From Holophagales bacterium (lineage in GTDB: Bacteria; Acidobacteriota; Thermoanaerobaculia; Multivoradales; Multivoraceae), in NCBI GenBank assembly GCA_009845425.1, contig VXZQ01000007.1, positions 124,001 through 188,000 of the forward strand: DNA of 64,000 nt. Reading direction: 5' to 3'. Below the pieces are notes generated by a model. It was not told where the DNA came from, did no database searches, and saw only the letters and a program-made list of their open reading frames with translations. Both the position numbers and the translations under genes were made by a program. This document shows positions 16,679 through 21,671 of this stretch, one piece after another. Position 1 is the stretch's first letter, and each line of letters begins with the position of its first letter.

Positions 16679-16909
16679 GTGAAGATCAAGCTCGATATCG
16701 ACTGCACGCCCGAGGAGGCGCGGGCCTTTCTCGGCCTTCCCGACGTCGCCGGGGTTCAGAACGAGATGCTCGAGAAGGTCCGCGACCGCATGGTCGCCAA
16801 CCTGAAGTACGCCGACCCGCAGGAGATGTTCCGGTTCTGGTTCCCGGGCACCGCGTCGCGCATCGCGGCGCGGAGCGCTTCCGGAACCGACTCCGAGGAC
16901 GGCGAGTAG
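16679..16909 (+). CDS. DUF6489 family small protein
   Basis: This 76-residue protein starts at GTG 16679, seven bases after a GGGAG site. 'IDCTPEEARAFLGLPDV' near the N-terminus followed by 'MVANLKYADPQEMFRFWFPG' matches the conserved layout of the DUF6489 family, small acidic proteins of unknown function found mainly in lipid-accumulating proteobacteria. It is transcribed away from the amidohydrolase gene and converges with the GNAT gene at the end of the lipid-storage operon, ending 8 bases from it. Its proximity to a phasin-like gene could be meaningful because both are small helical proteins, but that link is only inference. Confidence 0.72.
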   Translation: MKIKLDIDCTPEEARAFLGLPDVAGVQNEMLEKVRDRMVANLKYADPQEMFRFWFPGTASRIAARSASGTDSEDGE

Positions 16910-16917
16910 GGCGCCGG

Positions 16918-17487
16918 CTACGCTCCGGCCCCCGCCTCCAGCCCCGTCACGTCGTACGACATGAGGATCAGGTCGTGCGTGGCGTCGTTCGGGTCGATCA
17001 CCCAGTCGGCCAGCAGGGCCTCCACCGAGAAGCCCAGGTTCTGGAACATCTGACGGGCTCCGCGCTGCTCGCGGGCCATCTGGGCGACGATCTTGGTCAG
17101 CCCGATCTGCTGGGCCAGATGGAACACGTCGTGTGCCAGTTGGCCGCCGAGGCCCGCCTGACGGACCTCGGGCAGGACCATGATCCGGATCTCGCCGAGG
17201 TGCCTCATCCAGGACGACTCGCGCCGGTTCAGGCTGCCGTAGCCGACGAGACGATCGCCGAGATGTGCGAGCACGGCGACGCGGGTTCCGGCCGCGGCGC
17301 CCTCGACCCAGTTGTCGACGACCTTCGGATCCGTCATGTCGACGCGCAGGAAGCGGAGGTCCTCTTCCGGCAGAGCACGCGCAAAGGCGAGCACGTCGTC
17401 GCGGTCCTCCTGCCTCAGAAGGCTGAACTGGAAGGACTGGTTCTTGAGGCGGACCGTCCGCGGGTACTGGGTCGCCATGTCGTTCAC
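16918..17487 (-). CDS. GNAT-family acetyltransferase, last gene of lipid-storage operon
   Basis: The 189-residue product has a GNAT fold: 'RVAVLAHLGDRLVGYGSL' (beta strands 2-3), 'EIRIMVLPEVRQAGLGGQLAHDVF' (strand 4 and the acyl-CoA binding loop R-x-x-G-L-G), and 'QMFQNLGFSVEA' (C-terminal strand). It may acetylate a small molecule or protein; the substrate is unknown. Translation can start at GTG 17487, which overlaps the phasin stop as GTGA, or at ATG 17478. The coupling indicates that it is made together with the phasin-like protein, though a role in storage granules is not shown by its sequence. Confidence 0.75.
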   Translation of the reverse strand: MNDMATQYPRTVRLKNQSFQFSLLRQEDRDDVLAFARALPEEDLRFLRVDMTDPKVVDNWVEGAAAGTRVAVLAHLGDRLVGYGSLNRRESSWMRHLGEIRIMVLPEVRQAGLGGQLAHDVFHLAQQIGLTKIVAQMAREQRGARQMFQNLGFSVEALLADWVIDPNDATHDLILMSYDVTGLEAGAGA

Positions 17488-17843
17488 TCGACTGTCTCCT
17501 CTTGGGCTTGGGGCTCGGGTGGGGCTTGCTCGGTTGCCTCGTCGCCGTCGGCGAGGCGGTCGAGATAGCTGGTGACGGCATCGAATGATCCGTCGATCGT
17601 GTTCTTGAACTGGCGCTGACCTTCCTGGGCGGCGCCCCGCCAGGTCTGGATCAGATCACGCGCCTCGTCGGGGAGGTTCGGGACCTGGTTCATCATCCGG
17701 TCGGCGAGTTCGAGCTGACGGTCCTGGAGGGCGACGATCGCGTCGTAGCCGTTCTCGAACGCGGCTCTCTGGAACTCGAGGACCTGCCTCTGGAAGGCAA
17801 GCACCTGTCTGGGGATGTTGCTCGGGATGTTGGCTCGATTCAT
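17484..17843 (-). CDS. Phasin-like granule-associated protein
   Basis: This 119-residue protein is almost wholly helical and amphipathic, beginning 'IPSNIPRQVLAFQRQVLEFQ' and continuing 'AFENGYDAIVALQDRQLEL', with an acidic and glutamine-rich tail. The size, the pattern of F/Q/A heptads and the 'W.......F' region resemble phasins, which coat polyhydroxyalkanoate or lipid inclusions. It has a good GGAGAG site before ATG 17843, suggesting strong translation. It lies between a WS/DGAT-family gene (14 bases upstream) and a GNAT gene. In this setting it more likely coats wax ester or triacylglycerol bodies, since no PHA synthase is in the window; that is inference. Confidence 0.68.
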   Translation of the reverse strand: MNRANIPSNIPRQVLAFQRQVLEFQRAAFENGYDAIVALQDRQLELADRMMNQVPNLPDEARDLIQTWRGAAQEGQRQFKNTIDGSFDAVTSYLDRLADGDEATEQAPPEPQAQEETVE

Positions 17844-17856
17844 GGTCTCTCCAGGT

Positions 17857-19230
17857 TTATGAAACTGCGGCGGTTCGGATCGGGACGGAAACGCTACGCA
17901 TCCGACGGCGGGGAGTTCGGCCTGCCGCTTCGAGGAGTTCGTCCAACGACTCCACGAACAGGTCGGGCAGCACGCCGGCGTCGGGACAGGCTCGTTCGTC
18001 CACCGTGACGCCGACGTGCAGCGCCTGGTTGTAGGCGAAGAAAGCGCAGGAAACGCCCTGGCCGTAGCCGATGGGCCACGAGGGCGTGTAGCCGGCAAGC
18101 GGTCGGCCGGCCAGGAACTGAGGGATCTGGGGGCCGTTCGCGTTGGCGACGGTCAGGTGGAACGGCGGCCGCACCGAGGACGTCATCGCTGTCGCGGCCG
18201 CCGCCAGCGGGCCGGCGGCGCTCTGTACGCCGGCGAAACGCGACAGCACGTCGGCCACCCTGGCTGTTCGCATCAGGCGCGCGAGCTGGTGAACGGTGCG
18301 CAGCCGGTCTCCGGCGCCGATGCTCAGGGGAACTTCGATGGGCAGGAGGCTTCGCCGTTTCCGGTCGCGTTCGGGAAGGTCGGTTGCCAGCGCCACGCGC
18401 AGACTTCGGCCCCGGGTCGAGACGCCTCTGAGGTCCAGATAGCGCTCGAGAGCGCCGCCGGCCAGGGCGACGACCACATCGGAGAGCGCGCCGCCCAGCC
18501 GGGCGCGGATCATCCGGATGTCCCTGTAGGAGAAGGCGCACCGGATCAGGCGCCGCCGTCCGCCCAGTCTTCGGTTGAACGGCAGGGGCACCGGAGGCAG
18601 TGCGAGATCGGGCATCGTCTCGTTCAGCGTCAGGAGGGCGGTCCGGGTGTCTTCCGAGGAGAGCTCCTGGAGGGCTGCCGCCAGATCCTGGCCGATCCGT
18701 GTCCAGTTCTGGAGCCACTCCGCCCCTCGTGCGCCGCAGCGGGCGCCGTTCGACGCCGGTTCGCCGGCCTTCTTCTCCTCGACTGTCGTGCCGCTGGCAA
18801 ACAGTGCGTGGAAGAGGTCGCCGGTGGCCAGCCCGTCGACGGCGACCAGGTGGGATTTGACCAGCAGGGCGTCGCCGCCCTCGTGGTAACCGGGCGCCAG
18901 GTGGAACTCCCACAGCGGCCGGCGGGGATCGAGCGGCTTGCCGAGGGCTTCGTCGAACGCGGAAGCAGGTTCGCCGTTCGAGACGACGTGGAGGTGCTCG
19001 GCGAGTTCGAACGGCGCCGGGCGCCAGCGCGGGGGGCCATAGGGCGGCCCGTCGACACGGAGGCTGAACCGCGGAAGCCTCCGCAGCCGACCCATCCAGT
19101 GGAGGAGTTCCTGCCGGTCGATCTCGCCATCGACGAGCGCCAGGCCCGCGACGTGCAGTCCGGGGCTGCGGCGCTCGAGGTTCCACAGGACCGCCTGGTC
19201 GGGCGCCAGGAGGGTGTTGGATGCGGTCAC
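17857..19230 (-). CDS. WS/DGAT-family protein with altered active-site motif
   Basis: The 457-residue protein has the WS/DGAT fold: 'LAPDQAVLWNLE' at the start, 'PLDPRRPLWEFHLAPG' before the active site, 'GALSDVVVALAGGALERYL' and 'LRVALATDLPERDRK' in the second half, and 'VTVDERACPD' near the end. The catalytic HHxxxDG motif of the family is here H-L-V-A-V-D-G (residues 127-133), so the second histidine, usually regarded as the base, is leucine. It may be inactive, have changed chemistry, or serve as a partner of the intact paralogue encoded two genes upstream. The GTG start overlaps the preceding stop as GTGA, so translation is coupled. Confidence 0.82.
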   Translation of the reverse strand: MTASNTLLAPDQAVLWNLERRSPGLHVAGLALVDGEIDRQELLHWMGRLRRLPRFSLRVDGPPYGPPRWRPAPFELAEHLHVVSNGEPASAFDEALGKPLDPRRPLWEFHLAPGYHEGGDALLVKSHLVAVDGLATGDLFHALFASGTTVEEKKAGEPASNGARCGARGAEWLQNWTRIGQDLAAALQELSSEDTRTALLTLNETMPDLALPPVPLPFNRRLGGRRRLIRCAFSYRDIRMIRARLGGALSDVVVALAGGALERYLDLRGVSTRGRSLRVALATDLPERDRKRRSLLPIEVPLSIGAGDRLRTVHQLARLMRTARVADVLSRFAGVQSAAGPLAAAATAMTSSVRPPFHLTVANANGPQIPQFLAGRPLAGYTPSWPIGYGQGVSCAFFAYNQALHVGVTVDERACPDAGVLPDLFVESLDELLEAAGRTPRRRMRSVSVPIRTAAVS

Positions 19231-20048
19231 GTGGCGGCCTCCGCGGTGAGCGCGGGGCTCGGGTGGCGCTTCAGAAACCGGGCGAGGTGGTAGTAGGCGA
19301 GGGCGTTGGCGGCCAGGCCGGAATGTGTGCCGAGGACTTCCCGGTTCAGCGAGGGGTGGTGGAGCCGGGTGTAGCGCCAGGCGACGACGCCGTCCCGCCG
19401 CGTGAAGATGGCGAGCTGCGGCACCTCTTCCGGGAACGGGCTTTGCACCGAGCGCACCAGGTCGCAGCGGCAGTCACCCGAGAAGCAGGCGGGCTCCCGG
19501 GCGCCGTCCCGTTCGACGACGCGGCGGCGCACTGCCTCCGCCAGCCGCATCACCATGGGATGGGAGCGGACACCCCGGATCGGTGAGCCCATCGTCGTGA
19601 CGGATGCGACCAGATCGGGACGCAGGGTCGTCACACCGCGCGACAGCATGCCGCCCAGGCTGTGGCCGACCACGTGAACGCGCCGGCCGGTCTCGTCCGC
19701 CGCCTTCTGGAGCGTTCCGATCAGCCGGTTGCCCAGCCGGTCGAGACAGTCGGCGTTCTGCCCGATGGCCGAACGGTAGGGGCGGTAGCCGATGCGGCCG
19801 AGCCAGCCGCGCATCGGGCCCAGGTAGCCGTCGGTGCCGGTGAAGCCCGGAACGACGATCACCGCGGCGCCGTCGCCGCGCGGCACGCCGATGCCGTGGT
19901 AGATCGGCGTGAACGGCAGGAAGGCGAACTCGGCGGCCGCGAACGGTTCGCGCCACAGCGGCAGCGCGGCCGGCACGGAGTCCCGCAGGAGACGCGGGTT
20001 CGCGCTCCAGATCGGATTGGCCTGGCGCCGCCGGGCCGCCGCGGTCAC
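19227..20048 (-). CDS. Alpha/beta hydrolase, lipase-like
   Basis: This 273-residue hydrolase has 'VIVVPGFTGTDGYLGPMRGW' (oxyanion-hole region), the nucleophile elbow 'VHVVGHSLGGMLSRG', and later 'LAIFTRRDGVVAW' and 'VLGTHSGLAANALAYYHLARF', which supply candidate acid and histidine residues. The lack of an export signal suggests a cytoplasmic enzyme. Its position between two WS/DGAT-family genes, overlapping both (TAGTG with the upstream gene, GTGA with the downstream one), points to a role in turning over stored acylglycerols or wax esters. Substrate preference cannot be read from sequence. Confidence 0.82.
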   Translation of the reverse strand: MTAAARRRQANPIWSANPRLLRDSVPAALPLWREPFAAAEFAFLPFTPIYHGIGVPRGDGAAVIVVPGFTGTDGYLGPMRGWLGRIGYRPYRSAIGQNADCLDRLGNRLIGTLQKAADETGRRVHVVGHSLGGMLSRGVTTLRPDLVASVTTMGSPIRGVRSHPMVMRLAEAVRRRVVERDGAREPACFSGDCRCDLVRSVQSPFPEEVPQLAIFTRRDGVVAWRYTRLHHPSLNREVLGTHSGLAANALAYYHLARFLKRHPSPALTAEAAT

Positions 20049-21559
20049 TAGGCGACTCCTCGCAGTGACGAGTCGGAGTCGGGCGTGGCGGTGGCCTCTT
20101 CGGCCTCTGGCAACTCAACCTGGGGTGACGCCGCCGCAAAGCAGAGTGCGCCGGTCGGTTCCTCGCCCTCTACGCCGGCCGCCTCCCGCAGTTCCGCGTA
20201 GGAGTCTTCGAGGCATTGGGCGAGGGACCAGGGGTCGGGGATCAGCCTGGCGTCCACCGTCATTCCCAGGGTGATGCGCTGGTTGTAGCTCAGGATGGCG
20301 ACGAACAGGCCGATGTTGTTCGAGACGATTCCGAGTGGCAGCCAGTCGACCAGCTTGTGAGGTCCGAAGTAGAGCGGGATCATGGGGCCGGGCACGTTGG
20401 TCGAGACCGTGTTGAACAGGGTCTGGGAAAAGGGCATCGTCGCGGCGACCGCGGCCATGAGCGGCGGCACCCGGTCGCCGAACTGGGTCAGTTGGTAGAA
20501 GGCCTTCGCCTGGCCGGCCTCCTTCAGCTTGTTCATCGCGTCCCGTTCGCTGCCAAGGCGCTTGACCGGGTCGTCGACCCCGACGAAGAGCGGAGCGATC
20601 ATGTTCGAGACGAGATTCCCGAGCTGGCCCCGTTCGTCCTGCTGGCGCATGCTGACGGGGCACATGGCCCGCAACTCGAGTCCCTTCGTGTCCTGGCCGC
20701 GCTCGCGCAGGTAGCGACCGATGCCGCCGGCGAGCACGGTGAGGACGACGTCGTTCACGGTGCCGCTCAGCGCAGACTTGACGGCGCGCAGTTCAGGGAA
20801 GGAGAACTGGGCCCATGCGAAACCCCGCTCCTTGCTGACCGGTCGATTGAAGACGGTGCGCGGCGCCGGGGCAGCGGAGACCGGCAGGGTCGCGGAGCTG
20901 GCCGCCACCATCTCACGCACGCGGTCTGCGATCAGGCGGGGGCGCGCGGCATCGAAGGCGGCGTTCGTCCAGGACTCGTTGAGTTGTCCGAGGCGATGCT
21001 GCATCGCTTCCTGGAGGAGGCTCAGGGAGTCCGGCAGCGGCTTCGGCGCCCAGGGTTCGGCGGGTGCCTCCGGCAACTTTTCCGTGGGCGAGAAGTCGCT
21101 CAGCACCATCGACAGGTCGACGCCGGAGACGCCGTCGACCATCGCGTGGTGGATCTTCCAGACGACCGCGGTGTGTCCGGGGATGCCGCGGAGCAGAATC
21201 CCCTTCCACAGCGGTCGGTTTCGGTCGAGCATGCCGCTGTAAGCCTCGGCGGCAGCACGAGCGAGGACCTGATGGTCGCTGTCCTCCGGGATCCAGACCT
21301 CCTCGACGTGGTTCTCAAGATTGAACGCCGGGTCGTCGACCCACACCGGGTGCGAGACGAGGAAGGGCGGGAACAGCACACGCTGGCGGTAGCGCGGCAG
21401 CAAGTGCATGCGGGCGGCGAGCTGTTCGACCATGTACTCGCGGGAGAACTCGCCTTCGTAGACCATGCAGCCGCCGATGTGCATCGTCTCGTTGGGGCGT
21501 TCGACATAGAGGAAGGCGGCGTCGAGAGGGGTCAGGAATCGGTTCAGTTCCGTGGCCAT
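20048..21559 (-). CDS. Wax ester synthase/diacylglycerol acyltransferase
   Basis: This 503-residue enzyme is a full-length WS/DGAT, which joins acyl-CoA to long-chain alcohols or diacylglycerol to make wax esters or triacylglycerol at the membrane. 'PLDAAFLYVERPNETMHIG' is the N-terminal motif, 'HHAMVDGVSG' holds the intact active site with His137-His138, 'VNDVVLTVLAGGIGRYLRERG' and 'VSTNVPGPMIPLYFG' are the conserved second-half motifs. It is the first gene of a five-gene operon ending at the GNAT gene, has a GGAG site 8 bases before ATG, and is preceded by two palindromes that look like operators. Confidence 0.92.
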   Translation of the reverse strand: MATELNRFLTPLDAAFLYVERPNETMHIGGCMVYEGEFSREYMVEQLAARMHLLPRYRQRVLFPPFLVSHPVWVDDPAFNLENHVEEVWIPEDSDHQVLARAAAEAYSGMLDRNRPLWKGILLRGIPGHTAVVWKIHHAMVDGVSGVDLSMVLSDFSPTEKLPEAPAEPWAPKPLPDSLSLLQEAMQHRLGQLNESWTNAAFDAARPRLIADRVREMVAASSATLPVSAAPAPRTVFNRPVSKERGFAWAQFSFPELRAVKSALSGTVNDVVLTVLAGGIGRYLRERGQDTKGLELRAMCPVSMRQQDERGQLGNLVSNMIAPLFVGVDDPVKRLGSERDAMNKLKEAGQAKAFYQLTQFGDRVPPLMAAVAATMPFSQTLFNTVSTNVPGPMIPLYFGPHKLVDWLPLGIVSNNIGLFVAILSYNQRITLGMTVDARLIPDPWSLAQCLEDSYAELREAAGVEGEEPTGALCFAAASPQVELPEAEEATATPDSDSSLRGVA

Positions 21560-21615
21560 TTAGGGGTCTCCAGAACGGGCGGAGCGCATTTGGGGAGGGA
21601 CTTTGCTGCACTGCT

Positions 21616-21630
21616 TGCTGCAACGCAGCA
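21616..21630. promoter_or_regulatory. PhaR-like palindromic operator before the lipid-storage operon
   Basis: TGCTGC-AAC-GCAGCA is a perfect 15-base palindrome, 57 bases before the WS/DGAT start codon. Its core fits CTGC-N3-GCAG, the sequence I recall for the PhaR repressor of phasin genes in Paracoccus. A half-site copy, TGCTGC, lies just beside it. No regulator gene is within the window. Confidence 0.5.
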
Positions 21631-21636
21631 GAAGCC

Positions 21637-21654
21637 TCGCACAGAAACGTGCGA
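21637..21654. promoter_or_regulatory. Second dyad in the storage-operon promoter region
   Basis: TCGCAC and GTGCGA form perfect six-base arms around six bases, immediately next to the PhaR-like palindrome. The region upstream of the WS/DGAT gene has no reading frame of note, so both dyads are likely control elements. Confidence 0.4.
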
Positions 21655-21671
21655 TTGGCAAGGGCCGCCCC

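Follow-up and report, generated by a model that had tools for sequence, protein, structure and literature searches.

Why would a bacterium encode a small phasin-like protein together with enzymes of neutral-lipid synthesis, and what would control such a unit? The question is raised by five genes on the minus strand (16918 to 21559) of a 64,000-nucleotide stretch of a Holophagales bacterium genome (GenBank assembly GCA_009845425.1, contig VXZQ01000007.1, positions 124,001 to 188,000; here called the window). We take the host to be probably sponge-associated, judging from what is generally known of such metagenome-assembled genomes (MAGs). To our knowledge, how bacteria that make both polyhydroxyalkanoate (PHA) and triacylglycerol (TAG) divide carbon between the two is an open question, and a phasin-like paralogue in a wax ester synthase/diacylglycerol acyltransferase (WS/DGAT) operon behind a PhaR-type operator makes this choice testable. 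We consider it probable, on the evidence of sequence, that the five genes form an operon for neutral-lipid (most likely TAG) bodies with its own phasin, placed under the PHA regulator PhaR.

Gene content and conservation of the operon

The operon comprises, from its first gene to its last:
20048 to 21559, minus strand: WSD1, a WS/DGAT (TIGR02946, PF03007, PF06974) with an intact HHAMVDG motif
19227 to 20048, minus strand: hyd, an alpha/beta hydrolase related to triacylglycerol lipases, with a GHSLGG motif (profile match and invariant residues)
17857 to 19230, minus strand: WSD2, a WS/DGAT-like protein (PF03007 and PF06974), predicted to be noncatalytic, in which HL[VA]AxDG replaces HHxxxDG
17484 to 17843, minus strand: phasin A, a small protein predicted to form two helices (AlphaFold hairpin; tree; phasin-like paralogue in the PHA operon)
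16918 to 17487, minus strand: GNAT A, an N-acetyltransferase (PF00583, 9.1e-10; R-x-x-G-x-G with R109, G112, and G114 invariant)

These genes overlap or almost abut, with spacings of -1, -4, +13, and -4 nucleotides (nt) from WSD1 to GNAT A, and a 112-bp intergenic region upstream of WSD1 extends the span to 21671. Gene order and strand were identical in all 19 congeneric loci where the cluster is contiguous, and the 4-nt overlaps between the hydrolase and WSD2 and between the small protein and the GNAT were present in the window and in 19 of 19 of these loci; in the 20th congener (G016), the cluster is divided between two contigs. Pairwise ratios of nonsynonymous to synonymous substitution (dN/dS) of 0.04 to 0.36 indicated purifying selection on all five genes, strongest on the GNAT (0.04 to 0.11) and weakest mostly on WSD2 (0.17 to 0.36), and for this reason the cluster is more than a chance arrangement. 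A preliminary description of the locus had reported five same-strand genes that overlap or nearly do so; its coordinates were confirmed, and the neighborhood proved to be conserved across the genus, as the 19 contiguous loci attest. This conservation supports the further proposal, made there, of a single storage-lipid operon that combines synthesis, a lipase-family hydrolase, and a candidate granule coat. The assignments of an intact WS/DGAT, a lipase-like hydrolase, a second WS/DGAT-family protein with a changed motif, and a GNAT enzyme likewise held when profile scores and motifs were considered.

WSD1 scored 384.8 bits against TIGR02946 (cut-off, 309.95), with its domains above their curated cut-offs and HHxxxDG intact. 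Because a search with PF07993 for a fatty acyl-CoA reductase yielded generic NAD-binding matches only, its product may be either TAG or wax ester, with TAG probably the better candidate. Relatives of WS/DGAT can have varied substrates, and one might suppose that the operon remodels a membrane or exported lipid (ester) rather than a store. We regard this as very improbable: the phasin-like partner, the lipase partner, and, as described below, a PhaR-type operator and a twin PHA operon all indicate storage.

The hydrolase matched the Burkholderia lipases (1hqd/1ys1) at 2e-13, and its S130, D219, and H242, invariant across the alignment, would form the catalytic triad. It shares with these family I triacylglycerol lipases a detectable profile similarity around the GHSLGG nucleophile but differs from them in that the best alignment spans about 100 of 272 profile positions. 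Unlike them, it has no obvious N-terminal signal sequence and is therefore probably cytoplasmic. GNAT A belongs to its family both by a PF00583 match above the cut-off and by its acetyl-CoA binding motif.

WSD2 retains both Pfam halves of a WS/DGAT but scored 184.1 bits against TIGR02946, under the cut-off. Where WSD1 has HHAMVDG, WSD2 has HLVAVDG, and all WSD2 proteins examined from the genus have leucine in place of the second motif histidine, leaving them without the two-histidine HHxxxDG expected of a WS/DGAT. Both of these histidines were reported to be essential, according to the title of Stoveken 2009 as cited in PMC9113324 and PMC5407786. In two genomes of the same family, proteins encoded beside a phasin and a lipase also lack the second histidine (G022, with arginine and the DG lost too; G023, HQALVET), although their long branches make orthology to WSD2 unsure. 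WSD2 is thus probably not a working synthase, and a conserved noncatalytic role appears to be the simplest reading. The genome of the window has only two WS/DGATs, both in this operon.

The PHA operon and its phasin-like protein

The preliminary description had remarked that no PHA synthase was in view. This is true of the window, but the genome has a phaC gene, the gene for its subunit, and phaR. They lie in a PHA operon about 56 kb past the window end, which reads phaR, phasinB, phaE-like, phaC, and GNAT_B, followed by an acyl-CoA ligase gene. Here phasinB is placed between a divergent phaR (PF07879) and the gene for a PhaE/PhaR-type synthase subunit (PF09712, above cut-off), after which comes a PhaC of probable class III type that scored 336.7 bits against TIGR01836 (E, 1.4e-100), under the curated cut-off of 365.3. 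The phaR-phasinB-phaE-phaC arrangement was also read in eight further congeners.

Two genes link this operon to the one in the window. The phasin-like gene occurs a second time in every congener, the two copies being about 30 to 38% identical, and GNAT A and GNAT_B share 37% identity over 171 amino acids (1e-38). With paralogues of the phasin-like gene and of the GNAT in each, the lipid operon is a partial twin of the PHA operon. GNAT_B is also found 3' of phaC in two other genomes of the family, G021 and G022. In these (L098 and L099), the PHA-type phasin gene adjoins phaR with several PhaR-like boxes, and phaE-phaC-GNAT_B lies elsewhere in the genome (L165 and L167). We rejected the notion that these GNATs constitute a storage-specific family; a third paralogue in the genus (L163, 6083 to 6640; G000:C8) and members from other families are encoded at a distance from storage genes.

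The small protein encoded in the lipid operon was modeled by AlphaFold as a two-helix hairpin (mean predicted local distance difference test score, 80.7). Its family can be called phasin-like because of where the PHA-operon paralogue is encoded: this small helical protein has PHA genes and phaR as neighbors. In the phasin tree, a lipid-operon group is separated from a PHA group, and G022 has one member in each (99/98); deeper placements, that of L048 above all, are unsure owing to long branches. The split between the two copies appears from this tree to be old. We infer that phasin A is a diverged phasin and a candidate granule coat. A search of plasmids for named phasin relatives found none, and a weak match of phasin A to WXG100 (E about 0.01) fell below cut-offs, so that identity was rejected.

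Predicted PhaR operators and the wider distribution of the operon

Two candidate sites precede WSD1:
21616 to 21630, minus strand: predicted PhaR operator, a dyad (TGCTGC-GTT-GCAGCA) located 57 to 71 bp before the WSD1 ATG, in which the published TGCRNYGCASMA is matched on both strands
21604 to 21615, minus strand: second PhaR-like box, AGCAGTGCAGCA, directly downstream of the dyad and with one mismatch to the consensus

The consensus TGCRNYGCASMA was derived from Bradyrhizobium PhaR footprints and bound promoters (PMC6201568). This 12-mer forms an overlapping dyad before WSD1 and another between phaR and phasinB, so that the WSD1 promoter carries the sequence expected of a PhaR regulon member, as a predicted site. 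Among 20 species of the genus, 16 have the WSD1 dyad without a mismatch and 4 have it with a single mismatch; the TGCTGC and GCAGCA arms of the dyad are fixed and its center is variable, which is the pattern of a protein-binding site. Genome-wide, there are only three dyads: one in the WSD1 promoter, one between phaR and phasinB, and one inside a coding sequence. Single matches to TGCRNYGCASMA are at background, numbering 30 as compared with 36 when the motif is reversed. A set of 475 kb of sequence from the genus contains 25 exact dyads, every one of them at one of the two promoters; this set was drawn from around both operons, and counting across the whole genome gives the fairer control. 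A pattern derived from the two promoters themselves, TGCTGCRYTGCASMA, is partly circular, and the argument for an operator therefore rests on the published 12-mer. Each of the 31 genomes searched has one phaR gene. Given that the PhaR-type operator is common to both operons, a single PhaR is predicted to repress both. Neither the operator upstream of WSD1 nor the twin PHA operon with its paralogous phasin and GNAT had appeared in the preliminary description.

The shared operator and the membership of a phasin A paralogue in the PHA operon could also mean that the phasin-like protein and the GNAT serve PHA or mixed PHA/lipid granules, the operon simply coexpressing lipid enzymes together with one more phasin for PHA and no separate lipid body being formed. 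We consider this unlikely. Two phasin-like and two GNAT lineages, separated by context, point to two targets, and in 19 loci the genes for phasin A and GNAT A are tied to the lipid operon by overlaps.

Several observations weigh against a PhaR-controlled lipid-body operon with a dedicated phasin. Phasin A and its PHA-operon paralogue match no phasin profile (PF05597, PF09361, or TIGR01837), and searches of the phasin A hairpin by fold and against solved structures gave generic helical matches only. The consensus TGCRNYGCASMA comes from Bradyrhizobium, which belongs to a different phylum than the host. No such operator precedes the WS/DGAT genes of G021, G022, or other families, some GNAT relatives are located apart from storage genes, and every genome compared is a MAG of an uncultured bacterium. 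Within the genome of the window, PF09361 had no match at all. What stands of the earlier phasin-like label is thus the place of the paralogue in a PHA operon, not recognition by a phasin model; the protein did not, however, group with unrelated coiled-coil families.

The missing profile and fold matches would also suit a small protein that is an unrelated helical hairpin, or a subunit of the WS/DGAT or of a PHA synthase (PhaE/PhaR type), rather than a granule coat. That seems to us distinctly unlikely, for in the PHA operon a PhaE-like subunit has its own gene beside phasinB, and similarity to the PhaE-like protein is at chance level (phasin A, 27% over 37 amino acids, E 0.043; phasinB, no match). 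Moreover, phasinB adjoins phaR, and phasin genes are classical PhaR targets (PMC6201568).

Beyond the genus, the cluster is found in less compact states. In the same family, G022 has a looser form, G021 has a GNAT gene adjoining a WS/DGAT gene, and G023 has WSD1 and the GNAT on one contig and a phasin-lipase-WSD cluster on another, with an exact PhaR box upstream of the phasin gene. In other families of the order (L049 to L055), a WS/DGAT gene is adjacent to that of a lipase relative, often with a 4-nt overlap and without a phasin-like gene or PhaR box. The named close relatives are MAGs labeled Holophagales, Acidobacteriota, or Thermoanaerobaculia, one of them being Candidatus Multivorans thiocomprendens. 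In the tree, the nearest out-of-family relatives of WSD1 are Binatia enzymes (grouped at 100/99) rather than the enzymes linked to lipases within its own order, a grouping that would fit horizontal transfer or ancient paralogy. In the Binatia loci (L075 to L080), the WSD1 homologues are 47 to 49% identical, and about 1 kb downstream lie a PhaC-like gene (350 to 361 amino acids) and a CBS-domain-like gene, a pairing of WS/DGAT with a PHA-synthase-like protein in another phylum. The WS/DGATs of G021, G022, and G023 (L045, L046, and L047) and the G022 phasin carry Lys/Ala-rich C-terminal tails that recall histone-H1-like or PhaF-type tails and are absent from the genus of the window.

Scans for sigma-70 promoters and terminators gave no signal above chance. 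An upstream PMT-type gene was rejected as an operon member, being missing in one locus (L042) and displaced in another (L039). One further neighbor is a possible associate of the cluster:
16679 to 16909, plus strand: DUF6489 gene (PF20099, 2.7e-11), convergent with the GNAT gene

Each genome of the genus has a single copy of this gene, usually no farther than about 2 kb from the operon, and the copy in G022 is found within the cluster, in the same orientation. The gene was not found outside the family among the 60 relatives searched.

Proposed mechanism and comparison with known systems

In the mechanism that we propose, WSD1 would make TAG (or wax ester) from acyl-CoA, phasin A, as a diverged phasin, would coat the lipid bodies, and the lipase relative would mobilize the stored lipid. 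WSD2 is probably a noncatalytic partner, e.g., a scaffold or lipid binder, and GNAT A may modify or regulate some storage protein. That a phasin should sit on lipid bodies is plausible because PhaP1 of Ralstonia eutropha, when expressed in Rhodococcus, is targeted to TAG inclusions, as the title of Hanisch 2006 cited in PMC5972917 has it. The sole PhaR repressor would keep the lipid and PHA operons off until storage starts. In the model from R. eutropha and Bradyrhizobium, PhaR represses its targets without storage polymer and leaves DNA once granules appear (PMC6201568); such a departure would here free the lipid operon from repression too. We put it at an even chance that a single PhaR directly controls the PHA and neutral-lipid stores through matching operators, with a phasin and a GNAT for each, and that this granule-titrated switch couples the stores or partitions carbon between them. 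The matching PhaR-type sites suggest that PHA and fat reserves are controlled together. If the proposal is true, the phasin-like family, which present models overlook, would gain a role, and GNATs would be unrecognized members of storage operons.

A search of the open-access literature found no paper in which PhaR is described as governing a neutral-lipid operon; as evidence that such control is new, this is weak. The TAG inclusions of bacteria are said to have no dedicated coat proteins in abundance (PMC5972917), and the Rhodococcus case of PhaP1 is engineered and heterologous, whereas the phasin-like gene in the window is natively encoded with a WS/DGAT. The PhaR-controlled phasin and PHA operons of R. 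eutropha and Bradyrhizobium diazoefficiens (PMC6201568) resemble the host PHA operon in having phaR beside a phasin-like gene with the exact consensus in the promoter. Unlike in those systems, the host has a second matching operator before its WS/DGAT operon, and its phasin-like family is unrecognized by present phasin models. Neutral-lipid clusters with WS/DGAT genes are known in bacteria, e.g., the atf9 operon of Rhodococcus jostii, and their contexts have been described (PMC10351704), including a WS/DGAT beside an alpha/beta hydrolase in Woeseia as well as a putative phasin on one betaproteobacterial scaffold. Like the operon in the window, these clusters pair WS/DGAT with lipid-metabolism neighbors, but their operons center on Kennedy-pathway acyltransferases. 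The operon in the window is a new combination variant of known parts: unlike those clusters, it joins a phasin-like gene, a degenerate WS/DGAT, a GNAT, and a PhaR-type operator in one conserved unit.

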